DNA from: Dirofilaria immitis
Lineage: Eukaryota > Nematoda > Chromadorea > Rhabditida > Onchocercidae
Reading direction: 5' to 3'
Length of the DNA: 64,000 nt
NCBI GenBank assembly: GCA_024305405.1
Contig: JAKNDB010000109.1
Location: 4,340,001 to 4,404,000 of the forward strand
The translations under genes were made by a program, and so were the position numbers. Under the pieces are notes generated by a model. The model did not search any database, was not told where the DNA came from, and saw only the letters and a program-made list of their open reading frames with translations. Below are positions 8,501 through 63,329 of this stretch, one piece after another (within the stretch, counting starts at the first letter, position 1; the number at the start of each line of letters is the position of its first letter).

Positions 8501-8771
8501 CCATAATTTGCTTTTATATTTATGTCAATATTAATAATTTTTCATTTTCAGGACACGTGGCCCATCATTTCTTCTTTACAAAAATTCCACATTACCATTT
8601 GATGGAAGCAACAGCGGCAATTAGAAATGTTTTGGAACCTTATAAGGCATATCGATGTAAAAGCAATTCCAATTTTTATTGGATTATTTGACGCTCAATG
8701 TAAAGTTAGAATATCTTATTGGTAAAGGCACTGGGATCCTTACTTATGCTAGACAACAAAAAGAGGAATGA
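5582..8771 (+). CDS. fat-2: FAT-2-like membrane fatty-acid desaturase (delta-12 type)
   Basis: Eight exons: 5582-5653, 6237-6415, 6584-6782, 6935-7023, 7230-7362, 7512-7640, 8185-8287 and 8552-8771. All join in phase to about 374 residues, close to C. elegans FAT-2. The three histidine boxes of front-facing membrane desaturases are present: HDCGH (exon 3), HRLHH (exon 3) and HVAHH (exon 8), as are the conserved WPWQKSH and [10 protein letters not shown] segments. HDCGH and HQYTSH resemble FAT-2 more than the omega-3 enzyme FAT-1. The family uses cytochrome b5, a di-iron centre and oxygen in the ER membrane to desaturate oleoyl chains to linoleoyl chains. As written, exon 8 hits a stop at 8689-8691 after about 347 residues. 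One extra T in the T5 run 8673-8677 restores a C-terminus that aligns without gaps to FAT-2 and ends at 8769-8771. Some donors (6783 GTCTGC, 7024 GTTGGT) are weak, but the protein homology fixes them. Confidence 0.92.
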
Positions 8772-14841: not shown

Positions 14842-15509
14842 TCAATAATGTTTTTCGTACCGTTCCTCAACTTCTCTTCCTCGTGCAATTTTTTTTGTTT
14901 CATAAGCAATTAATGGACTCATCTCAAAAGAAACTGCCTGACAATTATTCAAGAGATCATCATCAATAACAACATTACATGACCTATCACTAATTTCAAA
15001 CAAGACATAGACTCTCTTTCTGTCTGAAACATCTGTTGCTACTAATATTGCTCTCGAAATCTATCAACATTTGATTTCTGTTACATACCGTTGATGGATG
15101 CAGTTCGTTGTGAGTCAAAAAAAAAGTCACCATAAAATCATGATCAAATAATGATGATCTCGCAGATAACTAAAGAAAAAAATCAAATCACATTCGGTTT
15201 GAGGAAACTCTTCATCCTCAACATTTGATTTCTGTTAACATTTGATTTCTGTTACATACCGTTGATGGATGCAGTTCGTTGTGAGTCAAAAAAAAAGTCA
15301 CCATAAAATCATGATCAAATAATGATGATCTCGCAGATAACTAAAGAAAAAAATCAAATCACATTCGGTTTGAGGAAACTCTTCATCCTCAACATTTGAT
15401 TTCTGTCAACATTTGATTTCTGTTACATACCGTTGATGGATGCAGTTCGTTGTGAGTCAAAAAAAAGTCACCATAAAATCATGATCAAATAATGATGATC
15501 TCGCAGATT
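14842..15509 (-). CDS. Unidentified gene, C-terminal exons overlapping a tandem repeat
   Basis: An open stretch on the minus strand ends with TGA at 14844-14842 and reads in part SDRKRVYVLFEISDRSCNVV and later AYETKKIARGREVEERYEKH, a convincing charged protein sequence. Its acceptor is either at 15060 (leaving a very short 28-nt intron) or, more plausibly, at 15032 after AACAG. Upstream are exon-like units 15169-15089 and 15340-15260, each with a TTTCTTTAG acceptor and a GTATGT donor, plus a divergent third copy to about 15509. Each unit is 81 nt and includes a T9 run; if that run is one short, the unit joins the 15032 exon in phase. I do not recognise the family. The gene may continue into the minus-strand fragments at 16.4-17.4 kb. 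Confidence 0.4.
15066..15508. repeat. 171-bp tandem direct repeat, about 2.6 copies
   Basis: Copies start at 15066, 15237 and 15408, a period of exactly 171 bp; the third stops at about 15508. They are nearly identical; the visible difference is A9 versus A8 in the adenine run of the third copy. Each full copy, read on the minus strand, contains a complete exon-like unit with acceptor and donor, so the repeat duplicates exon plus intron. Confidence 0.9.
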
Positions 15510-22288: not shown

Positions 22289-23792
<1,504 letters not shown>

Positions 23793-29865: not shown

Positions 29866-30000
29866 GTAAGAGACACTTTCGAAATTACATAGCTTTGAAC
29901 TTCTTACTTTTTATTTTTACTACTGGTAAATAATTAATTTTGTCCGATCACAGATTCTTTTAAATAGCTTTTAGTGCTTTATGTAGGTAACGAGTTGTTC

Positions 30001-32710
30001 ATGTCCTTGTTGTCCGAGAATTCGGGGCGACGTTCTTCGTCACATCGTAATCTACGAATGGCTCGAAATTTATCACGTGGATGTCCTGGTTCGATGGATG
30101 CTGGTACCTCCTTTATTCCCAATTTTTGGCGGTTGCAAGTGAGGTATTTTTTTTGCATTGCTGTTTTTACTTCATATGACTAATTTTTTCAATATTGAGC
30201 CATCACGTTTTGTTTGTTTGTTTCTCTTTCTTTTCATTTTATGATTCATGTAGGGCATGAAATTGACAGTCGATGATGATAACTGGGCAGAAAATACCAC
30301 AGTTATAACGGGCAATACAAGTGAACACTCATATAGTGGTCTTGCCGAAAGAGCATTTATGGCTCCAGTTGGACGTGTTGTAGCCAGAAGATGTTCTCGA
30401 ATATTTTGGCTTTTCAGTGCCTCGCTTATTTCATCTGTGGCTATTATTTCTCCCTCTCTTATGGTTGCTTTACCAATTATTTTGTCTCAGGTTGGATTCG
30501 GCTGGCCTGAGGTTTTTTAATGATTTTTTTGAAAAGTCTAATGAATCCGAATCACAATTAATGTTGAAAATAAAAAATAGACGAAAGATATATTTAATGC
30601 TGAAAATGTTAGTAAATCAGCTTAAAATGGTTATCGCAAGATTCTTTGCTATAACATGTAGTTTGAAACGCTTCGCCATGATTTCAAAATCTGCAGGTAT
30701 TATGTGACGCTGACTGCCAAGGACTGATGTTAAATTTGGCAGTAAAAACAATGCTGTTATTAGGCGCACTTTGGGCGATGTATTTCCGACGTGCTTCAGC
30801 AGATATGCCACGTCTATTTTTTCATCGTGCTGCATTAGCATTCTTAGCTTTATTCGTTCTCTTTGCCTTCTGGTTGTTTTATTCTGTTCGTATATTGTTC
30901 GAGAAAGAAAACAGTTATAATGTGATTGTTGGTTTTGCTCTTTCATTACTCGATGCAATGCTTTATTTACACTATATTACGGTCATTATTTTGGAGCTGC
31001 GTTCGTTGAGACCAGAATTCATTGTTAGCGTTATAAGGGATCCGGATGGAGAAAGTCGAACTTTTAGTCTCGGATTGATGAGTATTCAGGAAGCTGCTGT
31101 CCATGTTCTCAGGATGTATTATTCCACTTTTCCATCTTATAATCCATATATGGATAAAGCTTTTAATGGAAGTTCAATGCATTTCCGATCTGGCAAGTTA
31201 TCATGCTTTATTTTTACTTGTGGAAAAATGGTTCCCATTTTCTCGCTATTCAACATATGAGTGTTGCCTATTATATTATTTATTCATTTTTCCTTGATTA
31301 GATGATTCGAAACCTCTCTTATGCTGTTATTTGGCTCCGTTACATTATTCGATATTATAAATATATAGCGCAGTAAATAGAATGGGCGCTTAAAGAATTT
31401 ATTATAAGTATATCAATCGATATTAGTAATCTCAAAGCCTTCTAGATAAACAACAGGATTGTATCTTCTGCTTATGTATTGAATTACTTTAAAATAACTA
31501 AGTATTTAGTCGCAAAAAAAGAGTCTGGATATCGAGAGATCCTTCGTTTTACCTGTAAGCAAATAGTTTAGGTGTGTCACAACCAGCAGGAGGTTTCAAG
31601 ATGTATGATATCGAAGGTTTGGGTAACGAATGTACTATAACGGAGGCTAACGCTCGTGTCATCATGGAAGCTGCTGCGAAGAGACGAATCGGTGGACACA
31701 ATGAACGTTATCATGAAATAGTAGAGTGGGAACGGCGAGTTCAAAAACGGAAATATCGCTTGATTAGTACCACTGAAGAGGCTTTTGCAAGTGTCCAAAA
31801 TGTGACAGCCAATAATCAAAATAAGGTGTGTATTCCGGAAGAAAATTTTTTCCTGAAGTCACACTTTATTAAGACTTTCAAAAGCTTCTTAAACATTCAT
31901 AATACTGAAATATTCAGTTTACGGAGATGCATAAAATAACTTTTGCAGGTTTTGGGAGAACCTATGGAAGCACTTGGAGCAGCGCAAGCAGTGTTTTCTG
32001 CTATCGCTAGGCCACTGAATAAATATTTGAAACTTACTCGACAGCAACCTCGTCATACAGCTGATCAAGTTGTTGCTCATCTTGCTCGCTGTCTTTCACT
32101 TCGTTTTACAGCTGCTACATTTTTGCAGAGATTTTCTCTTCGAAATTTCCTTTCCCAGTTAGTTTTTTAGCTTTGACTTTATTATTTTTGCTGCTTCCTG
32201 TCATTAGAATTGAAGGTTTTATGCAAAAAATTTATTCCTTAAATTTTGGTTTATAACTATTGCTAGATGCTGTTTACTAACACTTTTGTACTAAAACATG
32301 GTAATGGAGTTTTGGATTATATATATATTAATGTTTAATGTTGTTTAGGAACGCGTGAGGGAAACAAAGTGGTCAATTGTATGCAATGTCCAAGCATCAG
32401 CTGGTATTAAGCATGGTACGGTGTTTGTACTACGTTGTCACGAACGTGATGATGATGCTGGAGTGCAGTTGCTTTGTTCACTTCATTCATTTCCTTTTTT
32501 AATCTCACTGAACAGCAATCGTCGACATCAAAATTTGCTTTAAAATTACTCCAGAATCAAATGTTTAGCCACATTTTGACATATTTCTTACTGATTTTTA
32601 AGTTGTACATTGCTGGATATCAGTTTATTCAGTTTTCTGCTACGTTTGCATATCCGTGCATAATATCATTCGATTTTTACTTGCATGTTAGAAATTTTTG
32701 CATGACTTAG
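30001..32710 (+). CDS. vang-1: Van Gogh-like planar polarity membrane protein
   Basis: Exons: 30001-30138, 30254-30490 (or 30511), 30697-31196, 31567-31825, 31949-32157 and 32349 to about 32543/32710. The N-terminus has DDNWAENTTVITGNTSEHSY, the conserved Vang signature. Four hydrophobic segments follow (around 30400, 30740, 30840 and 30930), then a cytoplasmic half with FRSGK, FKMYDIEG, AAAKRRIGGHNERYHE, ERRVQKRKYRL and KYLKLTRQQPRHT. Vang works with Frizzled, Dishevelled and Prickle in planar cell polarity at the plasma membrane. The start is taken at ATG 30001; earlier exons are possible. Two frame breaks occur. One lies in 32118-32157, inferred because exon 5 must end in phase 0. The other is the T6 run at 32495-32500, after which PFFNLTEQQSSTSKFALKLL matches the Vang C-terminus. 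The usual ETSV PDZ-binding end is not seen; the restored frame runs on to 32710 through a hydrophobic stretch, so the last exon is probably mis-ended. Confidence 0.92.
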
Positions 32711-34183: not shown

Positions 34184-34205
34184 TGCTGGGGGTTCCTATC
34201 ATTCC

Positions 34206-34740: not shown

Positions 34741-42580
<7,840 letters not shown>

Positions 42581-45274
42581 TGCTTTCACTGCTAATTTTT
42601 AATGATGTTATGGTTACGCTGCCTTACGGCATGGTTTAAGCAACCGTCTCTTGTGAATAATAACAACGTTGATTACTAATATTTTATGAGAGGAGTATTT
42701 ACAAGAAATATTTTACTAAACTTCTTAGATTTCGTGGAAGTCAGTATTATTCAACAGTGTATTTGGTCGCCGTGATTGTATTTGTTTTTTATAAGGAAGA
42801 AATCCTTCAGTTTATCCTACTGCTACTGCTGCTTTTGCTTTCCACTTTTTAAATAAAGTCTTTTTCTGCATCTGTGATGCCATTGCTGTCTATTGGCTTC
42901 TTCGCATCTAAGCTCTCCCATTCTCTTTCGCAAAAGTGATACGTTTGGAGTGAAATAATTGTAAACTTTATTTAAGATAGTATCAATGAATACAGATTGT
43001 CTGTTTAAACCAATGATGTATCATAATCGCCATCCCGTTTTGCCAGGCTACATAATTGTTCAACTGCTGAAGATTTTTTTAGTCTAGGCTTTTCTGATTT
43101 TTGTGCTACTATCTGTTATATTTTTCCTTTTATTCTGTTCCCATCATTTCATAGTAATGTGATTTATTATTTAGAGGATTTTCCAACTCCTAAGTTCTGT
43201 AAATGTTCATTTCACTGCATGCTGCATAACGTTCAAATTTACGAGATATCTCTTTCTGACTTTTTCTATTTTTGTGAATGCACTTGAATGAACCTGATAA
43301 TATGTTGCCTAAATGAGCGAGAGCTTATCGTTGTCTGATTAATCAGTTCTACTTATTTTCCGGTTTTGGGCACAAGTTGGTGGATAATGTTTCGACTCAC
43401 TTTCCGCTGAGGAGGAATCTTTTCCAGAAGTGAACAATCTGAGTTAGTATGTAAATTTCATGCTTTGTTTTCGGATTGATTTTCTTGTTCCTTCGTTTCT
43501 GTTTGTCGTGTTATTTATGTTTTATTGTGTGCATCCAACAAACTTGAAGCGTTCATCATAGGCATAGGGTGCGCTCCAAACGCACACCTCATTTTGTTAA
43601 TAGTTTTTTTTGTCTCACAAAATTGTTATGACGAATGAAGACGAATAAATTATTATTATTCGTTTTGCGCATTTTGAAAAACGCCTGCTCGATTATTTAA
43701 AGTTTAATAGTTTAATAGTTCAATCAAGTGGCAAAGTGATGGTGAATGTAAGTGTTGGGAATGTAGACGTGGTGTTCACATTGCAATTAGTTATGAGATA
43801 TGAGTGGTTTAGCATTGGTTTGGCAGAGGCTGAGGTTTCTTACTTTTTGTGAAGTAGAAGACAGGTCGGGAAAGGAAGTAGTAAGATTTCAAATTGGATT
43901 TATTGAGAATGAGGTGAATTGTGAACGGTGTCTAGAACGCAAATCGGGTTGTACTAAACATAAGTTGCAGAATGGCATTCATCAATATTATTTATTATCT
44001 TTACTTGAACATATGGGAAATTCGTACCGTTGCACAAGGCCAAATGATGTTTTGATAGTATTTCTATTTGGGTCAGTTCAATACGAGCCACTATTAGAGC
44101 ACAGTAAAGTGATGATGTCGTGCCCTAGTTGATATTCTTACCATCATCCTTGACCTGGTTAGGTTTTAATCTTTTGAAATTATATGCAATCATCAACAAC
44201 TTCTCTTATCTGTCTTTTCACTCATCTCAATCGCATTGAAGAGCAAACGCTATTCCTTGTCAATTTTTGTATTCTATAATTAGCGTTGTATGTCTTGATA
44301 TTGTAGTACTAAAGTTGGAATATTCTTGCAGTGATTTTATGAGTAAGCTTCCAAGAAAGGTGACGCAAAGTGTTTGATTATACTACATATTCGTACACAC
44401 ACATTTAGAAACTTATTGAAGGATTTCGAGATTTCAAATATCAACCTATTGTTGCTTTCAGTGTACCAGTTCAAAATCTTGTTCGATGAGCGAGTTATGC
44501 TGATGTTTTATTGACCTACGAGATAGTCACACACCGATGTATCAAACATTAATTGCCGCTGCATGTAGAACAGTCCATATTAAATGTGTCTGGATTGTTT
44601 TGATTTCAGTTTCTATTACGTATAATTTGGTGATTTGTGACATAATCAAAATAGTATAGATTCATTCTTATTTTAACTAGTATTTTGTTTTCACAACTAA
44701 CTGTTGGGAATTTTGATTTATGTGCTAGTCATTTCAAATAATCATCACTGTGAACAAATCCCTCTCCGTGCTTGTGAATAACTGAAAAAAAAAGTGTGTA
44801 TTTCCAGAAATAGGTATCATAACTAAGCTCTATTTCGAATTTATTGGATTAGAGTATAATTTTTTTTTATTTATTTATCGAAATGAAACTAAACAATATC
44901 TTACCAAACAAATCAAATAGGATTAATCTTTACCTCATTTTTTATTGAAGAACAGTACAATATGGTTCCATGAACGTTAACAAAATTTTTTCAAAAACTA
45001 TCATTAAACCAATCATAAAATAAACCGAGTTTTATTTTTACAACAAAAAACTTTGATTAAATAAAAATAGATTTATTGCATCATGTTTATCATATAGAAT
45101 AATCATGTGCTATGAAAAATGAATATTACGTTGAAGATTCGAATATCTATTCTCTTACGATTTTTCATAATATTAATTTCGTAAAATTGCAAATTGCATT
45201 TCGTGGATGTGGAGTTTTGAAGTGTGATATAAATGTTACAATTGATGTTTGCTTGTTTCAGACAAAGGAGAGCA
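42581..45274. other. Intergenic between math-33 and the lipocalin-related cluster
   Basis: 2.7 kb, AT-rich. A single 110-codon ORF at 43800-44132 has five Cys residues and no recognised domain; its composition and lack of splice context leave it doubtful. The last few hundred bases are presumably the promoter of the first lpr gene. Confidence 0.4.
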
Positions 45275-48200
45275 ATGATTATGAAAATAATTAGTATGCT
45301 ACTGATTACTGCTGGTATGATACATGCAGATATCAGTGATCGGCCAATAACAATTAGACTGCCACCACAAAATCGAAAACCAAATTTCATGAAGGAAGTG
45401 ATGCCGCCTCGTCCTATACAATCGCAGTCGCAGCAAACATCGGCTGCATCAACTAACCGTTCTCAAAAATCGCGTTTGGGAAGTCATCCTTCATTGACTC
45501 CTACTGCTCAACTTCCAGTTATACCGCCGGTAAGTTTATTGAAACCTATTTTAAAAGATATTTTGTACTTCACTGTGAAAAAATCCATAGATAATTTTCG
45601 AAATTTAAGTTTTGCTATTATCTTATTTGGTCTTCATATTAAAATGTTCTACCTCAGTTCATGCGTTTCCTTATTACCATATGAAGTACGACAATAACTG
45701 AGCAATAATAGGTAATAAAATTGAAAATAAAAAGCAGATATTGCGGAAAAATCTTGAAATAATGCTATAAGTAGTTTTACGAGATAAATTTTTCAGCACT
45801 AACAATATTAGTTAAGAAAAGAGTATTGAAATTTTGAGTAGTCTGTATTGTTGACTGACTCGTCGCTACTGTTAAATTAATAAATATACAAGTGATGGAC
45901 AAATCAACTACAAATTGTCATGTTCTTAATAGTTTTAAAGAAATCTTAACTTTACTTTTAGTGAACGCATTATCACATGATTTAAATTTCTCAGTCGAAT
46001 GGCATTCGGTAATTTCATGCATATTTTATAATAAAACAACTACAGTAAAAATTAAAACTATAGTCCATTTATCAACCATAAATAGAAAGAAAAATCACGA
46101 AATGAAATGTTTAGTCACCAGTCACGGAGCAGCAATTTGTACCGCGTCTCATAACGACACCACCACCGCCACCTCCATTAAATATACCACCAGATGTACA
46201 AAATCAACTCATCAAATTTTTTGGTCTCGATAGTTTTGGAATACCTGGTCTCACTGGTAATCACCCGGATGGTTTCGCAGGCGCTATTCAGGTTTCTTAT
46301 CTCGTATGCAGAAAACATATAAATTGGGTATAGGAAATAATCGCAAAAAATGCTTCAATTTAAAATTCTAGGAATTGAGAGCTGCAGGAATACCCGTTCA
46401 AGGTTTACCACTAGAGCACATTTCCGGAAGTCTTTCGCCTTCTACTTCACAAAATGGTTAGTATATATTCCTTAGAATTTATGAAGCTAACTATAATTTG
46501 CAGACAGATTAACTTAATTACAGATGTATTATCACAAGCAAATCCAGCATTTGGGAGTCAACTAAACCAGTTGTACAACGAGGCAACAGGTCCGACGCAT
46601 TATCGTGGCATGAGCAATATGCCTTTACCTGAAGCTACTCCTGGTGAGAATGGTCTTATTGGCTTACTGTCAAGTTCAATAAGGAAATTGGTCCAAGACA
46701 GTAAGTTATTTTTGCAAATTATTGTTTTATAGACGTTCACATATGAAACTCTTTTATCCTAGCAATAGATCTTTAATTTTATTGGCGTGCCTTTGTCAGA
46801 AGTTCATTTTAGACACCTATTTCCAGATTTTTGGATGCGAATCAGTTTTTGACAAATCATTAAGATTTCAGGAATTTGTAAACGAAAAATTTCATTGCAG
46901 CTGGTGTAGCCGATGCATTGTCACAAGGCATTCCTAGCGTACTGGGAACAGGTGGCAGTGATGCAGCTGTTGCTTACTCAAAGGATGCTGAGACGGAAGC
47001 CGTAGCACAAACTGTCTCAAACTCTGGGATTCGTCGACAACAGAATGTTGCGCAGCGAGTACTTTCTGGAGTTGCAGCAGCGCTTGGTGCCGGTGGTGGA
47101 CGTGGACCAGCTCATGCAGGGCTACCGCGAATACCTGGCTTTCCATTATTACCGGGTGGTATACCTCGTAACGAACAGGGTCAAATAGATGTTGTTCAGC
47201 TTATTGGTTTGTTTTCGATTTCATATGATATTCCATGAGAAATCCTGTGCAAAATCATGAATGATATTATTTGCATATGTGACATGCATAATATTCAAAT
47301 GGTAGGATCAATAACGCGTCGTATTTCTAATGGAACAACTCTGGCTGATGTAATACCACCGGAGCAGTTGCAAACTCTTGCCGATAACGTCACTGATGCA
47401 CTGTTACCACCAACACCTGAAGATTTCGACTTGCACAAATTTATGGGAAGGTGGTTTGAAGGTATCAATAGTCCTCGAGCTACTGAACAACGTTGCGTTG
47501 TACATCATTGTTCGTTTATCATTATTTCGCTTTGACACATCAAAAATATTGGCTCAATTAAAGAATAATGAAATTATGTGGTGTGTTTGAAATCACTGGC
47601 TTAAATGATTTTGCATAGAATGTGACTGCACTGAAGTCAGTAATCTTCAGGTTATTTAAGCTTGCAAAAGTAAGGATTTACTGACTCAGCTAATTTTTGA
47701 CCATTTTGGATATATGAAGCACAAAAAATTCTATCGGAACTGATGATCCATAATAAATAGTCATCAAACTAAGTTGATTTGCTTAAAATATAATCATTTT
47801 CATATAGATGGCGGTTTAACAAAGAACGATAAGACGGCTACTTTCACAGCACTGAAAATTTACCGTGAAGGGAGTGAATTTGGTCCGGTACGTTATTCAA
47901 TCGGTTATGCTTTTCGAGGAGGTAATAAAGATGCCATGCTGCAGCTTCACAGTTCTGAAACTTCTGATGCACAACCATGTTCGTCCGATTAGTTTTACCA
48001 TTATTATATTAACACTGTATCAAATTAAAATCCAATTGTTTATTCAATCTGGAATCCAGTAGTGACATAGTTGAAAGCTAAGTTAAGCTGAGTTGGTTTA
48101 GCGCTAATTTGAAATTTATCTTGCAGTTTCAGAATTCTTAATTTTAATAAGCATTTTCTAAATTTTTTTTTAGTTTGTAAAGCATTTTTTAGTTTGTATG

Positions 48201-48533
48201 TTTTTATGATTTGATAAAACTAGCAAAAGTTGCATTATATTTTCAGTTTGGATTTATAAGTTGGGTCCAGAAGGAACAGATCCGTTTGGTAATCCACAAT
48301 ATGAATGGGCAGTCGTGTCAAATTGGGTCAAATATCCTGTAACGGTATTAGTTCGAGATCCGGATAAATTTAAAGCAAAATACGAGCAAGAAGTACTGCG
48401 ATGGTTAGAAGATCAAGGTTTTATTAACGGTTTCATTAGAGCTTTTAATATGCTGCAACCAGCTAGCTATAGCTCTTGCCAGTATGCCGACAGTACTTTC
48501 GAAGTATTTGGACCTAGTAAACGTTTAACCTGA
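45275..48533 (+). CDS. lpr: Lipocalin-related secreted protein, cluster member A
   Basis: Eight exons join without a break: 45275-45529, 46115-46291, 46372-46456, 46524-46700, 46901-47206, 47306-47509, 47808-47978 and 48247-48533, giving 553 residues. A signal peptide (MKIISMLLITAGMIHA) is followed by about 350 residues of Pro-, Gly- and Ala-rich sequence, including a PPPPPP stretch. The C-terminal 170 residues form a lipocalin-like domain. It opens with the G-x-W motif (MGRWFEG), has Cys in EQRCVVHH and SSCQY, a TATFTALKIYREG strand, and VTVLVRDPDKF before a final helix (VLRWLEDQGFINGF). C. elegans LPR proteins are secreted, and several shape the apical extracellular matrix and thin tubes; ligand here unknown. 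It is the first of four paralogues in the same orientation. Confidence 0.85.
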
Positions 48534-50715
48534 ATTTCGTTACTTGTCAATAACGGTTAATTTTTTATTGGCTTTATTTGCTTTCTTACCTTGCATATAT
48601 ATCCTTTAAGTATTCTTTGAAAGATCGAAGGATGAGCAAAATTATATTCGAAAAATAGAGAGAGTTCGAAATTGTTGATTCTGTTAACAAAGTCCAATTG
48701 CATTTTGAGGAAAACTCTAAACTTCTAAATCGAACTTTAACGGATTTCATTCGCGTTATTTCCAAATTTTTATAATTTTTCGTTGTTTTAATTTTAATAA
48801 ATATACTACTTTTTACGCGGAGAGCTGATTTTGAAATTTTACCAAAATTTATTCTGGTTTTGGTCAAGAGAGTGAACCAGTAATATGTCGTTTTCAATCA
48901 TAGAGAGAACGTAATTGAAAACTGTTAAGTAAGCAAGAACATAGTGTAATTTTCCGTAATATTTCGTCGAGAAGTTCAGATATAGCTAAATTATATTTGC
49001 TAAATACTGCTCGCTAGACAAGTTGACCAGATGCTGATAAATTTTTTGTCTGTTGAAGTAATCAATTTTATCTATCTTCATCTTACGTTTTCTTTGTGCT
49101 GAAAAATATATTTATTTGCTAGGTATTACTCATTTGATTGAAAGTTCGTTAAAATTGTTTTGTGTTATTGATTAGAATTTCCTTTTGAAGTACTTGTGCA
49201 GGAAATTGATTATCAAATTGTAATTGATGTTATCACTGAAACATTATGTTTTGAAAGCAGGCGGATCACTAATGTGATTTGTTTTTAACTTGTTTTTGAT
49301 TGAATTTGGTTATAACCAGTCTTTTTTTCTGAAGGTTCTGTGATATAGTTTTCACTATTTATTAAAGTATTTCAAAACTTATTCTGCTAGCTTATAGAGC
49401 ATCTACGCCAAACGTGCTTGCCTTTCGAATGCTGTATCCTCGCTACTAATACGAAGAAGATCCATCCTTCTGTTATTTTCCGAATACGTGTTTTTGGAAA
49501 AAAAAAGGAAATGTAATATCAGGAATTTTTTTGGGAAAGTGATAAAAACGGATATGAATGACTGTGCTACTGCATTTATTGAGATGGAAAAAATCCTTAA
49601 ATGACTGCAACCAAGTGGAAACTGATACAAGTTATTAAAAAGTCATTAAAATTTTGCGGAATATTTTTAAATGCCTGAAAAAAAAACAACTTGTAGGGAA
49701 CAGTGGAGAATGTGATCTGGTTCTATCATCCTAACACTATTAAATTAATCAGCATCCTTATATATTATTCTCGTGCTGAGTAACCTTGATTCCATAATAA
49801 GGATGATATGCATAACGAACGCATTTTTTACTCTTACACTTCATAATCGTTGATTTAATGTATTAGCTATTGAAACGGCTCAACTGGTTTATAAAGATAC
49901 AAGTGGAATGCTTACTATACAAAAAAATTCTTCCATATTGAAAAATATTGAGAAAAGCAGAAAAATACACAACGATGCATAAAATGAGTTTCTCCTCTTC
50001 GCTACTTCTAAATTCAACTCTATTTATGTTATCCATTAGTGAGACAGAACAATGAGTGTAAAGGCTAAGGAGTCTTGAAATCCCTGAATAATGAATGTGT
50101 GGAAACAAAATCCTGCATAGAATTATCTCTCGTCCGTTAAAAAAATTTTTCCGCAAATGTAAAATAATTTAATCTTTCATATATATAATCGATACACATA
50201 TATATGTAGCAAAGGGAAGATATAAATGATTATCATTTTTGATCATTATTGCTATAATTATTATGCTTGCTTAAAATAATAATGGCAATGAATGAATCAA
50301 AATTGAATGATACAAAATCTAGTATGTTATATAATTTTTCTTTCATTTTGACCTCAACTCAGTCATGATTACCCGCTGAATTTAAGACAAAATGTAGCAG
50401 TGAGCGTATATTTTTAAAACAATGAAGTGATATAATTATTATGTTAAAATAATTAGGCATGCTACATGCCCTATTTTATTCAAAGACAGATCTTATTTTA
50501 TGACTGATATCTCCTTAGAAAAAAATCGGTGGTTTCATAAAAGGAATGGCAGAGAGAGCATTAACCTAAATTTAATATTACAATTTTCAAGGTCTGATCA
50601 GACGGTGAACAATGAATGAAGTTTAATTCGCAGTTCAATAACCTTACTCTATTAAACAGCTCCACAGAACATAATATTATTGCTCAATTTGTACGACATC
50701 CGCAATCCGGTGCAA
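48534..50715. other. Intergenic between lpr genes A and B
   Basis: No supported gene in this 2.2 kb AT-rich interval. It contains short TA-rich tracts near 50180-50210. The final stretch probably carries the promoter of member B. Confidence 0.45.
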
Positions 50716-53700
50716 ATGATATCAGTATTCCTGTTACTTACTGTTATTGTAAGCTATGTGGAAACTATTGGTGAAAATCCGGTAGGCGATTTATAGCTTC
50801 TCAAGATTTTATGAATTGAAAATTTTTGTAACGATTGTAAGAGGTGAATAGAAAAAATTTTCTCTTATCTAATGGAGTTTATTCATATTTTTTAAATGCT
50901 ATGAGCCTCTATTTATGCTTAATTCGTAGCATTCATAAATCAAACGATCAATTTGATTGAAAACTTTAAAATTCAGAATATAAAATCTGAAAAAAACATA
51001 GTAATCTTTCAACATTAATTAATGAGATAATATGAATTACTGTTCATGAAGATTCACTTGTAGTAACAGTGATAACTAATCATTATAATATATATTTTTT
51101 AATACTACCGTTTTATTACTATATTCATATTTTCAATGTACTTTTGAATGTTTTATTAATCTAGTCATTATAAAACCAGCTCGATTAGAACACGGGAATA
51201 ATGAAGACTTTTAATATCACAACAAAAGAACAGCTTCGAATATTCCAAATTGTAAATTGATTTCTTATTTAGTCAGTAATGAAATAAATTAACAATTTTT
51301 AGATGGACATCAATGCCTTAGCTGGCATCATTGGCGGTATAAGCAATATGATGCAAAATAATGTTGAAACAATTGATGTACCGTCTTCACAAATCATGGG
51401 CCAATGGTATCAGGTTATCACTTTTATATTTGCATTAAAATAATGATATGTATATGCTTCTGTCTGATGTCGTATTTCTGCAAACGTTCGAAATATTTAT
51501 ACTGGCGTCAACCATTGCATGCGCAAACATAGCAATTTAGTTTTCAAAGTCAATGATACTTTTCCAAATTAATTAATTACAGGCCAAATAATAGAACGTG
51601 TTGTAAATGTATTGTAATGCTGTTAAAATATTTATTTGTTTTTTTCTTTTTTTTTGTTTCGATAACCATGCCATCACATCAATAATTAAAAATTTGAGTT
51701 CAGAATAACATTGGATTTTTATATGTAGTGAAAAAACTATTTTCTCACATTGCACAGTCTTCAGAAATACATGTGTTACAGGTATATAAAGCAGCGATAA
51801 GTTTCGATGCGTACAAGACAGATATGTTTTGTCCAGTTGCATATTGTGAGTCTTTTTCGGTTTGCTCGTTTAATGCAGATACACAAACGAATATTTATAC
51901 AACATTGCCTTTTCCAACATCTCAATCTTAGCCATATTTTCATGTCCACTATTCTAATGAGATTACTTTACACTGTGTCTTGAATAAGCATTCCAGTGAT
52001 TGCTGATATGGAAATGCAAGACAAGGCTTTACGCTCAATCCATATTATTTCTTATGAGATTGATTGACAGCCTTTAAATTATATTTGAATTTACAGTCAA
52101 GCCAAATTCGGTAATGGGCGAAGATGGGTTTTCGATCGAAGAAGCTTATCGAGTGATAACAAAGAATGGTCCAGTAGAGACTTTTAAAAGAGATTTAAAC
52201 AAAGTTGGTACCGGACAATACTGGATGTATACTGAGGAATATTTTTATCCTCGACAATGTGAGTAGCATTTGCATTTGAAATTTGAATAAAAAAACATTA
52301 AAATATTACTAAACCAGATATCGTTATTTCATGTACTAAAATAGCAGTCGTAAAGCTTGCTGAGAATTTCAGTTAATATAATTGGTGTTGGCCCAAATTA
52401 CACGAATGCTACAGATGGAAGGAAAAGGAAAATCTGTATGAATATATGATTGTAACCGATGCAAACAGGCTATCGCTAAGTGTTTATGCTCGCCATCCAA
52501 TGATATTTTATCAAGTAATCTGATTGCTCATTTGTTTTTGTCTTAACATTTCGTGTAAACTATGTCTTTAAACTTAGTAAAAAAGGGGAATATTTTGAAA
52601 TTTTGAATTATACTTTCAGAAATATAACGAAGAAGTTGTGAAATTTCTTGAGCATGCTGGATTCGGTGGAAGAGTTTTTGGAATTCACCTAGACCTATTT
52701 ATCAAGGCACCGATTGTGAATGGCCATCCGAAAAGAAGTATTTGCTCGACGGTATATCTTAACAACAATTAATTGATTCATTTTTAAAGAGATTTTTTTT
52801 TTAAACTCTGGGGAGTGCTAACTGCTGATCTAAAAATTCCAGTTCTTTTGTGGTTCAAACGGGAATTTTATTGCTTTTGTAAATTTCTACCAGTGGGCTA
52901 AAAAACAACGATTGACATCTTTCTTCGTGTTTGAAAATAAATTATTAAGTGAATCGCTGACAGAAAGCTCAATAAATCTTCGGTTTTCTCGCTCTTCAAG
53001 TCCACAGTATTACTTAGTTATTGATCTCTTTTATATCTGAATGCTTCAAGGAATAAAAGAAGCAATATGAGAAAGAAAAAATGAACAACTTCAAAGTTAA
53101 ATCGTATTTTCTTTTTTCTTTACTCCTTGTCGCATCCTCATTGTTCTACTTAATCTTTTGGCAAATTCGCAGAAACAATATAGAGTAGATGGGGATTTTG
53201 TCTTAAATGCTGGTATAAATTTGAAATCGGTATTTTTCAAAGTAGAGTTCGATAAATAATGACTCAGAAAGATGTCTATTTCTGCTAAAAGCTTACCAAT
53301 ATAGTTTTAGTTGACACATTTTTAAGCACTCTAATTTCGAAGATGGATTTCTAAATTTGACCAATGCTTATCTTAATAAGTTGCAGAAAGTGCTGACCAA
53401 GAACAATAGTATTTTCACAATATTATTTAAAAAATAACAATTTGAAATAATGAAATACGTCATTAACATATTTTATTCGATTTAAAATGAATTTTGATTT
53501 TCTAATCTATGTTTTTAAGTAATGGTTTAAATAATTTTACCCATGAAATAGGACGTCGAAACTTCACTTTATGAAATTGTGATAGATTTTGAAAAATGAT
53601 CACAACTGCTTCCATTCGTTAGTTGAAAAATTTAAATACATAAATAATTTTTTGAAAATTAGATTGCAAGATTAATTGTTTTACAGAGTCTTGAAAAATC

Positions 53701-53846
53701 AGGAAGCGGCTAGAAACACAGGATTGGAAACAGCGACTAAATCCGGATTATTTGGTTCCTCGCTTACAACAGATGCTTACAATCCAATAAAAGAAATGCT
53801 TCAGAATCCACAACTGGCACTGCAGAAACTAGTGCAAGGGCACTGA
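50716..53846 (+). CDS. lpr: Lipocalin-related secreted protein, cluster member B (short N-terminus, extra C-terminal exon)
   Basis: Seven exons: 50716-50781, 51303-51413, 51782-51845, 52097-52258, 52373-52514, 52620-52751 and 53687-53846, giving 279 residues. The signal peptide (MISVFLLLTVIVSYVETIG) is followed almost directly by the lipocalin motif IMGQWYQ near residue 54, so the long linker of members A, C and D is missing. Shared features are CPVAY, a YEYMIVTDANRLSL strand, ARHPMIFYQ, and the helix VVKFLEHAGFGG followed by Cys-Glu-Trp. Three added bases are needed: A4 52423-52426, T5 52675-52679 and A4 52731-52734. With all three, EVFA aligns with EVFG of member A, and exon 6 ends in the phase required by exon 7, which adds a Gln/Asn-rich tail ending LVQGH. 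If the third is not accepted, the protein ends at 52762 and the 53687 exon is orphaned. Confidence 0.75.
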
Positions 53847-53857
53847 CCCTATTGATG

Positions 53858-53923
53858 TACACACCCACACCACACACCCATATTCATATACACATAGACA
53901 CACATACATACACACACACACAC

Positions 53924-53982
<59 letters not shown>

Positions 53983-54045
53983 TACAACATACACATACAC
54001 ATATAGACAGATATATATATATATACGAATATACATATATACAAA
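53858..54045. repeat. CA-rich microsatellite with CACATA hexamer core
   Basis: Begins just downstream of member B. A mixed CA tract passes into about ten tandem copies of a CACATA-type hexamer (about 53925-53990) and ends in a TA tract. The long ORFs on both strands through it are artefacts of the repeat. Confidence 0.9.
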
Positions 54046-54189
54046 CATTCCTATCCTAATTGGACCATTAAGCGTGTATTCTTGCGCCGTTCACTTTCGA
54101 AACATTTCAGCTTTGGCATCATCTAACTCATTAGTACAATTCCATTTAAATCCGTCACATGTTGATGGTCCTCTTGTGTGTGGGTGTGT

Positions 54190-54235
54190 CCGACCGTCCG
54201 TCCGTCTGTTTGTCTGTCTGTCTTCTGTGTTTCTC
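54190..54235. repeat. CCGT/CTGT tetranucleotide repeat
   Basis: Tandem CCGT units pass into CTGT/TTGT units. Simple sequence repeat; no coding role supported. Confidence 0.7.
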
Positions 54236-54906
54236 TGTCATGTGGATTACTCAGAAAGTTTTGATAGTAATGTATTATCCGTGTTCGATAAACGTGTTGC
54301 CGAAGGGCAATGGCCTAATGCGCTAGTTTGAAATGATGCACAAATATGCGATGATAACCGCAGTTACCGTCCAACCTTTTCTTCTTTCAGTTTATTTTCT
54401 AATTGGGGTCAGTCGCTGGCTTCCTTTCCTCCAATCGGCATTTTCTTCGGTGTTATCATCGATTTTATTTACTGTCTTCCTCAATTACCACTTCTAAATT
54501 AGTTTTCGATAATATTATACATTATCTTATTTAATCTTGAACGTATTGTGAGGACCATATGTGATTCAATGCTGACAGTAGTATGATTTCAATTGTAAAT
54601 AAAATTGTATATCAATATCACAAAAAAGTTCATGATGCTGAATATCAAACGTTTTCATTAATTTACATTTGACTAGGCTGCTCGTGATTAATTTATAATA
54701 TCTATTCTTGCAAATTTAGTGAATAGTGTAATATTGTTGGATCTCAAGTTAATCTCTCTGGTCACATAGAAGCGATCGTTCTGTTTGATTTCAAATTATT
54801 ACAGGAACACTCATATCAATTTTCGAAATTAAAAAAGCAGATTAGATTAATGGAACAGCCGGCAGACCTTTATAGTTGATGTAAAGAAAGCATCACCAGT
54901 AAATAC
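54236..54906. other. Intergenic upstream of lpr gene C
   Basis: AT-rich interval with no supported gene; presumably promoter or 5' UTR of member C. Confidence 0.4.
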
Positions 54907-57900
54907 ATGGGAACAAACATGGATGTGACACATTTTTTACTAATTTTGACGATTCGTGTAATGCCATTGACTGCTGCACAGCTTGACGTATTTGCGCTAC
55001 CGCAAGCTCCGCGTTATGCGGCAAAACCAACTGTACCACCCGAATACAAAAATATTTCGAATTGGAAGACCATGCACGTGGCCTTGTTGAAAGTGTTATT
55101 GGCCCAAGACCAGGTGGTTTTCCCACCAAAAAGTTATGAAATTGGTCGTCCAGTACGTATCAGTTCAGAGAATAATAATGCCGCATTGAATGAGGTTGAA
55201 CGTTCTTTGGAACAATTTCTCAGTGCACCATCAGGATTCCCTCAACAACTACCACCTGGTTTCAATCAGGGTTTCTCGGTTGCTAATAGTGGTAGTCCTA
55301 TTGCATCATTTTCAAATATCCGCAAACATCCAGTATGTGAAAATTTCATTTCTGCTGCTTATAATTTGGTTTATTTTGTATTTATTTTCACTTCTTCATA
55401 TAAAATGCAAAATACTGTGGTAGTTTTATATGTCCGCTTTTGCAGGATTTAGTAATCTTAGATTTCTGTTTTTTTCCGCTTATGTTCAGGTCAAGTTAAC
55501 TGCTGCAATCATAGGGAATGCAACCGAGAGGGATAGTGGATGAAGAAATTGAAGGATCAGGTGATAATGTACATTCATCTATACGTGGTATACCAAACGT
55601 TTATCCTGATTTAGCTAGGCCACCGGTTGAACTAATACGTCCTCATTTGCGACAGATAACTACAAAGCAGGTACCAAGTTTCAGTTGTGCCTGTGTGATT
55701 CTTTTTTTTGTACAGACAAAATTATTGGAAGGAACCAAATAATTGAGACTGAGCTAAATGCTGATGCATAAATAAGGAATTGAATTAGAGAAAAAAGGTT
55801 GAATTGTCAAATTCTAAATCAGATGACTTAGTTGGATTATTATTGCATCAGATCCCAACAATACCAAAGATTGAGTCACAACCAGAGGTTCCTGATGGAG
55901 GTTTTGGACCTAACGAGAATGTGATCCGTCGTACTTCATTTTCAAAAGAAAGTGATGATGAAAGCAGCGAAAATGAAGAAGTTCGTATAATTATCATTTG
56001 TTCTAGTTCTTCGGAAATTTTTGTAAAATTTAAGCTTTTTCAATTGCTCATTTTTGTTGGTGATAAGATTTTAATTATAATCCTTATTGAAGTATGGTAC
56101 ACTAAAGGACGATTCTTCATCGTCGGGTGGCCTGATTGGTACAATAATCAATTTAATTGGTTTAAATAGCAAAAAAATAAGTTGGAATCTGATACACGGA
56201 GTTTGACAAAAGCGGTTGGTAATTTGATTGGAGGTGAGAACAGCCCAATTCCAGCCAAAAACATGATTGCCGATGTTCTCTACAAAGCGCTCGCTGGTGG
56301 ATCTATTCAAGTAATTAATTATATCTTAATGGTACTTAGAAAATTCATTTCCAAAACTTTATTTGAAATTGTTAGTAATTTACTGTAAATCTTAACATTT
56401 TAAATGACATGTCTTCAGTTGGCTAAATTCATCATTGTAAAGAAATACTTTTAATTAGTATTACGAAAGCGTATTCCGAATTTTTTAGTTGACAGTCGCA
56501 TAAATGGAATCAAAGGTCTTAGATCATCTCGGTTTTGAAAGATAATATGACAATGGTTACTTTCTAAATCCAGTTGATTGAAATTATTTTTATCAATTTT
56601 TAAAGTATTGTATTCATGAATTTTCTTTATATGAAGAGTTACAGACGAATGGAAGTGATGAAAATCCTGACTCCAAGTCAGCATTAACGCTTACCCCTGC
56701 ACAACAAGCTGTAATCGGTGAAAATTTGGAAATGATTCAAAACCTAATAACTCAACCATCGTCTCCTCTCTGCAATCCAAAACCAATTCCTATTGAAGAA
56801 TTTGATGTTGATGCATTCATGGGTCAATGGTACCAGGTTAGTTAGAGCTAAAAATTGCGACATAAGATTATGAAAATTCTGGAGAGAGTCAACACCTGCA
56901 ACTTTATTTTAGGCATGTGGCTGTTTTCGCAAATGTTTTAGATAAGAAGACAAACTAACGTTTGTTCTAAAAGTCTTTCAGAATTCAAATATTTTAGCTG
57001 AGAACTTAAAGTTTGAAAAGATTTTTTCAGGTTATGTATAGTCCACCGTTGGCAACGGGACCGTGTAGTATGGTTGCTTATAAGAAGTTAGCAGATGTGA
57101 ACGATGGTGGAGTTGGCACGATATTTGAAGTGTTCGAGTACACAACTGATGGTACACCCTATGTTAAGCCACGTATCAGCTCTGGATATGCTGTTGTTAA
57201 ACAAGCTGGTGAACTTATTTATCGAACAACCAGTTATCAGGATGATGTCAACGGTAGGGTATTTGCATTTAAAAAGAAATATTCTAGATTTTTCATCGAT
57301 CATGAAAAAATCTTCTTGGAAATTAATTTTTGGTTAAATTTTTTTGCTCGGTTTTCTGTAATAAACTAAGCAATTTTTTCTGACTGTATAAAAATTTTAG
57401 TTCATATAATTCATGTCGGTCCGTTAAATGAAGCCGGACAGTACAGCTTTACAATACTTTCAACAAACTGCAATTATCCATTGTATGTATTCGCACGCGA
57501 TCCTGTCATCTATAAACAGGTTACTAATATTTTATACTTAAATTGCTGAGAAACGATTTCTTTAAGAGAAATATGGTGTTACCGATTATTTCGTAATGGC
57601 CAGATAACAGTTTTACTAATCATTTTAACGAAAAGATGACAATTTTAACGAATCATGGTTTGCTTGTTTACAGAAATTCAAATTACAATTTTTTTACGGC
57701 AAATCTATTGATTGAATGCACTTAGCCAGTAATGATTTGGCTTACTTTGCAACGGGAAAAATTCTAAAAAGTAAATTGCACAAGTTTTGATGTCAAAACT
57801 GAAGCCACTAAATCAAAACTATAAGTTCAAACATTTCAAATTTCTAACAAATTTATATTGATATTGCGATCTTTTATAATTCATTCATTTTTAGTCATAT

Positions 57901-58083
57901 TTCTCTTTATAATTCATTTTTTTGGTCATATTTTTTTTTTTATAGCGTTATGAAACGATTGTTAACCAGATTCTTGAACAGAAAGGATTAATCAATGGCT
58001 TTTCTCGCTTGCTGAACATTGTTGCACCTGTAGATAATTCGGTGTGCACATTTCCACCAAGTTTGTTCAATATTCATGGATAA
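54907..58083 (+). CDS. lpr: Lipocalin-related secreted protein, cluster member C
   Basis: Eight exons join without a break: 54907-55332, 55515-55670, 55798-55980, 56170-56310, 56645-56836, 57031-57253, 57401-57519 and 57946-58083, giving 525 residues. An N-terminal hydrophobic segment (THFLLILTIRVMPLTAAQ) serves as signal peptide. About 330 residues of Pro-rich and acidic linker follow (ESDDESSENEE at the end of exon 3), then the lipocalin domain: AFMGQWYQVMYSPPL near residue 360, CSMVAYKKL, VGPLNEAGQYSF, CNYPLYVFARDP, and the final helix ILEQKGLINGFSRLL with CTF near the end. It aligns well with A, B and D over the C-terminal 165 residues, with little similarity in the linker. The acceptor chosen for exon 3 (AAAAAAG) is atypical but fixes the phase. 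Confidence 0.86.
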
Positions 58084-60386
58084 TACATCGTTAATATTGT
58101 CTGAAATGACAAAGTGTAACAAGAGGCTTGTTGAAGGATTTGCTACAATAGATTATCTAATTAATCTCCGTTTTTCTTTAGCTTTTTTTTCGTTTAATGA
58201 TAAAAATTAACACAGTTTTTCTGAGAAAATTTTTAAGAAAAATAGTCAAAAATGCTGCCAATTTTGTAATTATATAATGAAATAATTAGAGGACTCCGTA
58301 TTCGATCTCTTTTTAATCAAAATAAACTTGAAATTTGTATTGAGCTTCATATTGATCACATTAATCTTTCCTGCGATTTGAAACTACGACAGATTTTTTT
58401 GTATTAATGTACTTACGGTGACAAATTAACATTTCCAGATATTCCTGCCGGGTATTTCTTATCTGTCATCTGTGGTTCTTTCCAAATCCTGATTTTTTCT
58501 GTTTTCATCGAAAAATACGTATAATCAAATAGTATGCAGGCCATTTCAAACTATCTCCTTTTGTTGTATCTCCCTATTATTTGTTTAGCCATTTAACATC
58601 CATAATTAAAATTAATTTTAAAATTGTTGGTACTTTTTCCTATTTTACAAAAATAACTATTTTGCTTTTCTAAATTTTCGGAAATTTCTTCCTGAACATT
58701 ATTGTTAGATCTACCAGGCCGAAAATATGTGCATTAACAGTGTACATAATGCTCCGAATTGAAACTTTTAGCATATATCTTCACATCGTATTTGATGTTG
58801 TGACACAATTATTCAATAAAGATGCAAAAAGTGTAAATTCTGAATTCTGGCGTACAGCTTTTACACTGCGCCAATTGTTATATCCATTACCGACTGAGAG
58901 AAAAAATAAATAACTATAACGGATCTTTTGCGTTTTGTTTATCCTTAAATAGTAGTTCATTAAAACAGAAGTGTTTAAATAACAGTATAAGGGAATATGT
59001 ATATAATAAAGTAACAATTTATAAGACAAAGAACTTGATCCTCAGTTCAAACGCCTCACACACTGGTGCTTTAATCAAAAATCTTAAAAAATTTTTCTGA
59101 AGATGCGTTAAATTAACACTCTCCAGCTGATGCAAATGGCGCTTCCCATTTTTTCATCATGTTATTTACCACGTGATCCTAATGATGAATTTATAAGTTT
59201 TAAAAATGGTAGGATGCGAAATGACGACAAAAGTTTTTGGACCAATGAGTTTGGGAAACTGTTTTTCAAATTTCGGATGGAAATATTTCCAACAAATATA
59301 GCAGTTTCACAAAACGCAGTTAGTGAAACATTATAAAGGAAAAGGAAGTAGAGGGGATATGAGAAATTTCTGAAGTGGAACATTGAGACAGACTCGTAAT
59401 TCTTGATCTGAAGTTTGTTGAAGGGAAAGTCATTATTCGTTACTTAAAGTTTCCTCGCTCGAAGGGAAAACGCTTAGTTTCAGCTACAATCTTTATATCA
59501 CATAGCTCCTTACCGTTTTCATATAATCAACTGTAGAAAAACTGCAACAAGATCACTTGATTGATGATAGATAGGGATCTATATATTTGTTCAGTTAGAC
59601 TTTCTCGTTTTCATGTTGCTATAACTATGACTATGCACCATCAGACTGTTAAATGCACAGTTATTCCTTCCATTAAGTTCAAAATTCCCATCTCTATTCA
59701 TCAGTTAAGCTTTTGGTGATTTTGTTGATGTCATAATCATAAAATTTTTTGTAGTAATCCAGAAATCATTATCTAATCTGCTTTAGTTTCCTCCAGCTTC
59801 TATAAATATTTTTTTTTATCAGTGTTTTAAGAAACCACGCATTCGAATGAAGTGGTAGAATAAGTTGAAATTGTTTAAGTATCCTACTACCACTCAACTT
59901 GATTCAATGAAGGCAAAAATTACGTCAGTTAATCATGGAACAATCTTTGGAGCGTACTAATAACATATAGGTCGTTTGCAATAAAAATTCTACTTACAAA
60001 ATTATTGCAAAAGGTGTGCAAAATATACATACAATGCGTATCATTTCTTATTAGAACCGTCTGTTATCTAGAATGAGACATTTTAGAGGTCATAGTGATG
60101 GGTGGAAAAAGTGACAATTCTGAGATGAATAAAATCTTAATAATGGTGGCTGATTAATAAATACTTGAAAATGAAGAAGCGATAGTAAGAAAAAGAGCAC
60201 TGAACTATGTGGATGTAGAGGCTTTTAAAATGACAGAAGTTGGTAAGGAAGAAGAGGTGAAAAAGGACATAGACCCCAAAATAACCCTCTTTTGGAGGGC
60301 GTAATAGTGCGTGTCGGTGTAAGAACAGGGAGACACAGACCGCTGATTATGTACCAATGACCTAAATCAAAACATTTCAAACATTG
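58084..60386. other. Intergenic between lpr genes C and D
   Basis: 2.3 kb with no supported gene on either strand; short ORFs only (for example 59130-59336 plus and its minus-strand shadow). Probably carries the promoter of member D near its right end. Confidence 0.45.
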
Positions 60387-63329
60387 ATGAGCCAAATGAC
60401 TGCTTCTTCTTTAGGTCGTTCCTCCACAGTCGGTGCTATTTTAATTTTAATCTTTAGCTACTTTTCGTGGATTAACTTACCCTTGTCTCACTCACAACTC
60501 ATCAAAATTAACGATGCCGAACGACAGCCTTCTTTAGTTGATAATGCTTTCTTATCATCCTTAAGACCATCTTCGAAAATTACTCGAGAAATCAAACAAA
60601 ATAGTTCTACATTACAATCATTTGGCAAAAATATTGCACTTACTAAACAGGTTTGTTTATTAAATTTTGTAATGGCATAATAATTATGCTTATAATAACA
60701 TATCCCATACTTTTAGTTAATATAATTAAATATCTATTAAACTAATTTTATAGCTATAATGTAAGGACATAAGCAATCCAAAATTTTTGGAGCGGAAAGT
60801 CAGGAGATTCAAACCATCATTGCTATTTGCTTTTTTATTATCCTCTACTGCTTGGATTTAGACAAAATGCTATTTCTATGACGTCTGAATTATATCTATA
60901 AAATAGTCCCGTCTGATTTTCAGGTGAATTATGCTTCTTTATATATCCAACTGTTAACGCACGAATGATATCAAAGTTTAGAAATTAAGGGAAGAGAACC
61001 ATAAATTCATAAAAAATGTGGTATTTTAACTCGTCCTTTACAATATATTTACAGGATAAAATCACACTAGCAAAAATAAGCGAAATAGCAGATAGCGTCT
61101 TGAACCAGCTAGGACTATCATCTGATTTCAATGGTCGTAGATACAAGCCACTGGCAGCATCTGGCTCCTTTCAAAATGATGATATAAATACGGTGATATC
61201 TGAAGCAAATCAGAACCGTATCGATTTGCAAGGTATTGCGAGCGGACAAATTCCTGGTTTGGCTCCAATCCCAGTACCAGCTTTTCCTGGACCACAAGAT
61301 GTACCAGCTATACCAGGAGTGAACACCATTCCTGGTCTTAGCAATTTCAACTACCTGGTCCTTTTTTTTTATTTTTAGATTTTAGATTATTTCCAAACTA
61401 AAATTTTTCTTAATTTTAGAGCTGTTTCGCAACTGAGTTTATTATTGAAAATATTCACGCATAAATTTTTAGTGATTATCAGGCCATATGGTAGAGGAGT
61501 TCTTTTGTAAATATCATTAGAAAACACTTCCCGTTATTACTTTTCTTCGAATGTATTCTTCGTTCAGATAAGCCAGTTATTTCCACAAATGATTCCACCG
61601 ACAAATACTCTTTTGGGTTCATCGATCAGCCGATTAGTGCCAAAAGGTTACGCTAAAAACTTGGCAAAAGATGTCTTTCGAGCTGTTCATCCAGCAGCCG
61701 AAAATGTCGACGTCGCTCGCATGATGGGTCGTTGGTTTCAGGTATGCATTTGCAGTTTTGATTCACTGTGCAATTTCCGTCAGCAATCTTTTCATCTAAT
61801 TCAAATTTTAGGTAATCAACAGTCCTCATGTTATCCGAGAAGCATGCACAGTGTCGCATTGTATGTTTTTGTTTGTTTTAGTTTGAACTACAGGTTTAAT
61901 TCCATTGATTTTAATATCCTAAAATAAAATTTCACAATATATATATATATACTCAAACAACAGTCGCCGGTTATTTCAACAACATCCAAACTTGCTAGGA
62001 TTGCACAAACTGAACCCTCAGGACAAAAGCGATAAGGAAGATCAGAGCCTTGGGTTCATCTTTTGCTCCCCTAGCGAATTCCCGGGTCTTCCGCAAAAAC
62101 TCCGAAGTACTCGGTAGCAAGCGGCAATGCATGCACAACCCTTAGCAGTTATATATATATATATATATACATGGATTTCTTTCAGCCAATGGGGACAAAA
62201 ATATCTGCCAAATCATTTAGATAAAAAAATACAAAAACCTAAACAGTTCTGAAGTTTTATTAAGATTCAAAATCAATCCTTTATAGTTGGCGCCCTGACG
62301 AACAATACATACAGTGCAACATTTACGATCTTGAAGTTTTATCGTGAAGGGAATGCTAATGGTCCACCTCGTTTTTCACTTGGTTATGGATTCAAGTCCG
62401 GCGATACTGGACAGTTTGTTTTACATAACAGCAATTCACCGGATTCAGAACCATGTAATTAGTTGACCGATTTATATATATTTAAAAAAATACACATCCA
62501 CATCCTTAAATTCAAGATATTTAGGCATTTACCCATCGGTTCGTTTAGATCAAAGCAAGACTAGGTTAAATACAACACTCAAGTTGGTTTTTCTGATTAT
62601 CCAAAATGATTTTCCAGCTTGTTTCAATGTTTGCTATTCTTAAATGAAACTTAAATCTGATCACATTGCTATCATATAATCTGAGTGCAATCGGATTTAT
62701 ATTCAAAGCACTGTAGAAACTTACGGAAGAAATTGGAAAACTCAATTCTTTCTTCTAGGATTTATATAATTTCAGATTTTTAAACAATAAATAACGTGAA
62801 TCTTATCCTATTTGAGGGTTTCATGGATTAAATAAAATTCACTAAAATTTTCACATTACAGTTTGGGTAATAAAAAGGGCCCACTAAACGAATACAATCA
62901 GTATGATTATGTGATTGTATCAAATTGGGTCCGATTTCCCGTATTTGTGATTGCCCGAGACCCAGAACAATTCCGTAACAAGCATATGCGAAATGTACTA
63001 CAATTTTGGAAGACAATAGTAAGTTCCTTGCTTTGAAAGCAAATTGTTAATAGAATATAAGAATTTAATAAGATTTCGAGAAACATATTTATTTTCTTAG
63101 ATTAGTGAATCGACTTAAAAATCAATTGACTTGAAAAGAAAATGGCAATAAAGTTGTCAAATATTATTTTCGGTTAATTTTTTTGAATTCGAATCTCATT
63201 AAATTGAAATTAATTAGTAAAATTACTTTCAGATTACATAAATGTAATGACAAAAGCTTTCAACATGATCTCCCCGTGGATTATAGTCAGTGTCAGTACA
63301 CGCCAACATTTTCTGGAGCAGGACGTTAG
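60387..63329 (+). CDS. lpr: Lipocalin-related secreted protein, cluster member D
   Basis: Seven exons: 60387-60650, 61055-61357, 61568-61741, 61812-61860, 62287-62454, 62862-63018 and 63233-63329, giving 404 residues. A hydrophobic signal or anchor (STVGAILILIFSYFSWINL) precedes a Pro-rich linker of about 200 residues. The lipocalin domain starts at MMGRWFQ (about residue 243), with REACTVSH, the strand SATFTILKFYREG, FSLGYGF, VIVSNWVRFPVFVIARDPEQ and a final CQY. Three added bases are needed: A5 62872-62876, T4 63004-63007 and C4 63272-63275. They restore VIKKGPLNEYNQYDYV, VLQFLEDN and ISPVDYSQCQYTPTF, each matching the paralogues, and bring both flanking introns into phase. The donor after CTG at 61357 (GTCCTT) is weak. 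Confidence 0.8.
61960..62175. other. GC-richer block flanked by TA repeats inside an lpr D intron
   Basis: Within the intron 61861-62286, a block from about 61965 to 62145 is clearly less AT-rich than its surroundings and contains CCCGGG and many CG dinucleotides. It is bounded by TA dinucleotide tracts at about 61938-61950 and 62151-62169. No ORF or terminal inverted repeat was seen. It may be an inserted non-coding repeat. Confidence 0.4.

Follow-up and report, generated by a model that had tools for sequence, protein, structure and literature searches.

The reading frames of several genes in a 64,000-nucleotide stretch of the Dirofilaria immitis genome (herein referred to as the window; positions 4340001-4404000 of contig C60, in a genome of 86.69 Mb and 65 contigs) are interrupted by single missing bases, and we are nearly certain that these breaks are the product of homopolymer under-calling in a nanopore-only assembly and not of biology. 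The initial annotation of this stretch had proposed the same reading, and it is now supported by the single sign of the breaks, their dependence on run length, their recurrence in three of six genes aligned outside the window, an anomaly in run lengths at arbitrary loci and the published method of the assembly to which the window very probably belongs. Under-calling is a known kind of error and the artefact is an ordinary one, with nothing new as biology; its importance lies in what it means for users of the assembly.

Materials and Methods

Proteins were aligned to genomic DNA with a purpose-written aligner that permits GT-AG introns in all phases and charges the same cost for a one-base deficit as for a one-base surplus. 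Orthologs were aligned to vang-1 (five), math-33 (five) and lpr-3 (six), giving 16 alignments, and the remaining lipocalin-related genes were compared with four lpr references each (lpr D and lpr C) or with 11 distant lpr references (lpr B). The tally of breaks covers ten genes and 4416 codons with one reference each, four of the genes lying in the window and six elsewhere. Among the latter, SEC13 and VPS4 were recognised in 17 loci (12 on C60) and the CCT genes were taken from a chaperonin search, from the loci of 4 of its 56 matches, and neither group consists of random picks; exon-wise family matches to the CCT genes located no frame shifts. Each break was credited to whichever run in its interval was longest, a rule that favours long runs, and random draws were handled identically. 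Among the 20 breaks claimed in the initial annotation, the ortholog check covered the 15 in vang-1, math-33, lpr B and lpr D, and Pfam was applied to the genes of the other five, fat-2 (1), the cysteine-repeat gene (1) and ZDHHC17 (3).

Two further approaches were abandoned. One was an ab initio frameshift HMM, with window exons and long ORFs as its training set, which was dropped on recovering 1 of 14 homology-supported breaks; its output on the window comprised one deficit and one surplus on the plus strand and one surplus on the minus strand. COX1 was dropped as a mitochondrial control when the search returned six short matches on contigs of nuclear size and no whole gene, four or five of the six carrying stops in the standard code. 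One COX1-like stretch with many standard-code stops, on contig C58 near 519460-520410 (L026, L027 and L029), may be mitochondrial DNA copied into the nuclear genome.

Frame Breaks in the Window

All coordinates below are those of the window and, unless stated otherwise, the genes and breaks described lie on the plus strand. The vang-1 gene (Vang/Strabismus, PF06638; 29968..32565) shares 93.2% identity over 526 matched codons with its Cercopithifilaria ortholog (P0001) and carries four one-base deficits, at the same places against all five orthologs: beside a T5 run (30126..30129), at a T4 run (32131..32137), at a T6 run (32492..32501) and at adjacent T3/A4 runs (32539..32548). Breaks had been claimed here before and are confirmed, but the earlier count of two was too low.

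The USP7-type deubiquitinase gene math-33 (34741..42580; start and stop from ORFs) has 24 introns in the ortholog alignment and, compared with A. viteae P0065 over 1149 matched codons, shows 97.1% identity. Seven one-base deficits had been claimed, and all seven recur against P0064, P0065 and P0069, and six against P0066 and P0067, with P0069 putting one of the seven 9 bases further on. Five of these breaks are placed by five of five orthologs, at A5 runs (37335..37344 and 40959..40968), an A4 run (37391..37397), an A7 run (38357..38366) and adjacent G3/A3 runs (40126..40132, where the database model discussed below stops); the other two, at an A5 run (37937..37946) and a T7 run (39326..39335, one placement lying 9 bases downstream), are each placed by four of five.

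Four lipocalin-related (lpr) genes stand in tandem at 45275-63330, among which lpr-3 alone has close orthologs among the fetched proteins. This gene (PF24976, lipocalin-related; 45275..48533, ends from ORFs) provides a control within the window: one-base deficits are absent against all six orthologs, and a single surplus appears with one of the six (P0190). In lpr D, the three breaks claimed earlier reappear as three deficits at identical places against four of four lpr references, at an A5 run (62869..62878), a T4 run (63003..63006) and a C4 run (63270..63279), and one of the four references also yields a surplus. The references for lpr B (51303..52769) are distant (47-63 identical of 153-199 aligned), and its three claimed breaks fared unequally: a deficit at 52677-52692 is found with all 11 references, a second at 52399-52429 is likely, being found with six of the 11, and the third has no stable placement. 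With three of these 11 references, a surplus also arises close to an exon boundary, in two cases at one and the same place. Shifts in lpr C vary between its distant references (deficits with three of four, a surplus with one of four), and its lipocalin end aligns to the four without shifts; over the stretch 48900-54700, a surplus arises with one of two references.

Elsewhere in the window, a T5 run lies at the earlier-claimed fat-2 break (8673..8677), as read from ORFs and sequence. Pfam matches to desaturase, ankyrin and DHHC pieces fall in the fat-2 and ZDHHC17 stretches, and Pfam recognises nothing in the cysteine-repeat stretch; matches in three frames placed none of the breaks claimed in these three genes. 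A repeat at a distance of 171 bases occupies 15130-15405 and contains the same 35-residue ORF twice on the minus strand. The genes vang-1, math-33 and lpr-3 adjoin one another (29968-48533), and for two or three of them the orthologs are again found on equally long contigs in C. johnstoni (169923), T. callipaeda (27050), A. viteae (12831543), Loa loa (181701) and Pristionchus fissidentatus (16031970), which suggests that this neighbourhood is an old microsynteny.

Sign, Run Length and Distribution of the Breaks

Across the ten genes of the tally, with one reference each, 18 one-base deficits stand against 0 surpluses (sign test, p = 7.6e-6), in agreement with the earlier claim that every break has the same sign. 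The scattered surpluses reported above for lpr-3, lpr D, lpr C, lpr B and the stretch 48900-54700 arise with alternative references, and SEC13 gives a deficit/surplus pair at a penalty of 10 and none at 14.

The breaks also lie mostly at homopolymers, as had been proposed. The longest run at the 18 breaks averages 4.83, versus 2.65 in exon intervals drawn at random and matched for length, and 0 of 20000 draws reached so high a mean; this longest run is 3-5 bases in 14 of the 18 breaks and 3-4 bases in 8. The share of runs that hold a break rises with observed length for A/T runs, from 0 of 5044 (0%) at lengths 1-3 to 6 of 141 (4%) at length 4, 6 of 45 (13%) at 5, 2 of 9 (22%) at 6 and 2 of 3 (67%) at 7. 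For G/C runs, the corresponding counts are 0 of 4353 at lengths 1-2, 1 of 99 at 3, 1 of 8 at 4 and 0 of 2 at 5.

Breaks are not local to the window, since they are also observed in CCT2 (two), CCT8 (one) and CCT5 (one), on contigs C15, C9 and C22, respectively, and so in three of the six genes aligned elsewhere; ortholog alignment found none in CCT3, VPS4 or SEC13. Within the window, 14 breaks fall in 2567 codons, and elsewhere 4 fall in 1849, a difference in rate that is not significant (p = 0.10). Individual genes differ widely: lpr-3, CCT3, VPS4 and SEC13 together have no break in 1319 codons, and math-33 has seven in 1162.

The shortfall may well extend beyond coding DNA: a dip in the continuation of A/T runs appears both in arbitrary loci and in parts of the window without a recognised gene. 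Measured in D. immitis DNA alone, in 17 arbitrary 10-kb loci that are unannotated and presumed to be mostly non-coding, continuation from five to six bases is 0.346 ± 0.011, against 0.411 ± 0.007 from four to five and 0.484 ± 0.019 from six to seven (Fisher p = 5e-7 and 2e-10). Continuation from five to six is 0.347 ± 0.030 in the window stretches without a recognised gene; the dip is weak in three AT-rich loci (0.439 ± 0.022, compared with 0.469 and 0.597). A dip at this step could arise from a pore whose signal depends on five bases, and would not arise from translation.

The 18S rRNA gene offers a further hint of shortened runs. In both copies examined, a G run is one base shorter than in the Rfam consensus, which is not filarial. 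Partial or interrupted 18S copies occur at L020, L021 and L022 (contigs C10 and C6), and a full copy lies near the end of C3; the 18S of the assembly described in PMC9179477 is given there as 98.91% identical to D. immitis AB973231.1.

Provenance of the Assembly and Proposed Mechanism

Protein searches match the window to filarial nematodes and to D. immitis in particular, one D. immitis record (P0184) being named LiPocalin-Related protein. A nanopore assembly of D. immitis of 87.90 Mb in 110 contigs has been described (PMC9179477), and PMC12693587, which gives an assembly total of 86.81 Mb, links GCA_024305405.1 to that description. On the match of species and proteins, and with totals that differ somewhat, the window very probably belongs to this assembly. 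According to PMC9179477, the input was one worm, sequenced with LSK109 and R9.4.1 and basecalled with Guppy 2.3.5; the assembly was built with Flye 2.8.3 (nano-raw), followed by Pilon correction with the raw reads mapped, and was annotated with self-trained GeneMark-ES. The Materials and Methods and Results of that paper name no short reads, and the methods that it describes thus include no short-read polishing, for an assembly that we connect to the window by inference and not by accession. PMC9179477 makes no use of the terms frameshift, indel, accuracy or error, nor PMC12693587 of homopolymer or frameshift.

We explain the breaks as follows. The R9.4.1 signal, being set by about five bases at once, hardly changes inside a homopolymer, and the basecaller tends to call such a run with too few bases. 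Because the error is shared among reads it passes into the consensus, where correction with the same raw reads leaves it in place, and wherever a run within an exon has been shortened the frame is shifted by a deficit of one base. Such breaks are in turn masked by the gene finder through altered introns, truncation and fusion, as is seen for vang-1 and math-33. Five bases are reported to contribute to the R9.4 signal, with homopolymer length tending to be underestimated, in a study that found Guppy 3.3.3 worse than 4.2.2 on homopolymers and whose scope does not extend to version 2.3.5 (PMC8486125). Likewise, the mismatches of a MinION assembly of Brugia malayi were described as mostly indels, with shortened coding sequences, and homopolymer errors were suggested as their source (PMC6925183).

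Alternative Explanations

The same arithmetic would follow if the runs were truly short and programmed -1 ribosomal frameshifting restored the frame in many genes, and the two breaks in A7 or T7 runs might be taken to favour such recoding. However, the annotated ortholog proteins of vang-1 (five) and math-33 (five) are continuous across the break sites, 14 of the 18 runs are just 3-5 bases long, and the run-length dip extends to window stretches without a recognised gene; frameshifting on this scale is therefore exceedingly improbable. Programmed -1 frameshifting sites are expected to be conserved and rare, and we know of no genome with seven of them in one gene. Decaying pseudogenes, or real frameshift alleles in the sequenced worm, would also account for frames that are broken in the sequence as given. 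The initial annotation had reasoned that pseudogenes should show mixed insertions, deletions and stops, and this is not the pattern observed: all 18 breaks are one-base deficits, in-frame stops are listed in none of the 16 alignments of vang-1, math-33 and lpr-3, these three genes are 93, 99 and 92% identical, respectively, to their closest orthologs, and CCT2, CCT5 and CCT8 are hit too. We consequently give almost no credence to decay or to real frameshift alleles.

Errors in exon structure, such as a wrong join or a missed intron, deserve consideration because the genes are rich in introns (24 in math-33) and their exons had earlier been joined by hand. Nevertheless, an aligner that admits GT-AG introns in three phases still needs the one-base shifts, and needs them at the same places across orthologs, which leaves a negligible chance that exon joining produced the breaks. 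Homopolymer under-calling accordingly stands as the explanation of the breaks, and the worm itself probably carries intact copies of the affected genes. It is very unlikely, if marginally less so than the preceding alternatives, that a small minority of breaks are real (polymorphic one-base deletions or tolerated -1 slippage) and lie hidden among the artefacts.

Consequences for Gene Models

The breaks have propagated into at least one public protein record. When aligned to the window, DINM_021284 (P0073) agrees at 1329 of its 1331 matched codons (residues 44-1382 of 1382), and this near-identity implies that the gene model was made from the window sequence. Its introns differ from those based on orthologs: in vang-1, the intron at 32069-32348 bypasses the break at 32132, and that at 32463-33789 bypasses the final two breaks together with the stop and leads on towards math-33; that at 37101-37441 skips most of the math-33 exon that holds two breaks; and those at 38349-38562 and 39189-39401 skip one break each. 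The model then ends at the break at 40130, short of the final portion of math-33. The result is a public protein in which vang-1 is fused to math-33 and truncated. A Ditylenchus dipsaci protein annotated as "ubiquitinyl hydrolase 1" (P0242) combines a USP7 C-terminal domain with a match to lpr-3 (67% of the query) and is possibly another fused model, in this case of the neighbours math-33 and lpr-3.

With 18 breaks in 4416 codons, a break falls every 245 codons on average. At that rate, 1.8 breaks are expected in a gene of 431 codons (estimated from a mean gene length of 1292 bp given in PMC12562366, which also describes HiFi reads), with about 83% of genes of that length affected, a rough figure drawn from ten genes. 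GCA_024305405.1 has been used as evidence for the annotation of D. asiatica (PMC12546972) and as a reference for RNA-seq (PMC11144916).

Comparison with Known Systems

Two known systems resemble what we describe. Programmed -1 ribosomal frameshifting would likewise act at homopolymers, restoring the frame there; however, its sites should be conserved, whereas here it is the D. immitis sequence that shifts, and the orthologs, compared as annotated proteins, are continuous. Nanopore-only assemblies, as they are described in PMC8486125, PMC6925183, PMC8812927 and PMC12007338, lose bases at homopolymers, and more so at longer runs, with broken frames and gene models as the outcome. The breaks in the window are the same in kind as those of these assemblies, and are documented here gene by gene for the assembly of D. 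immitis.
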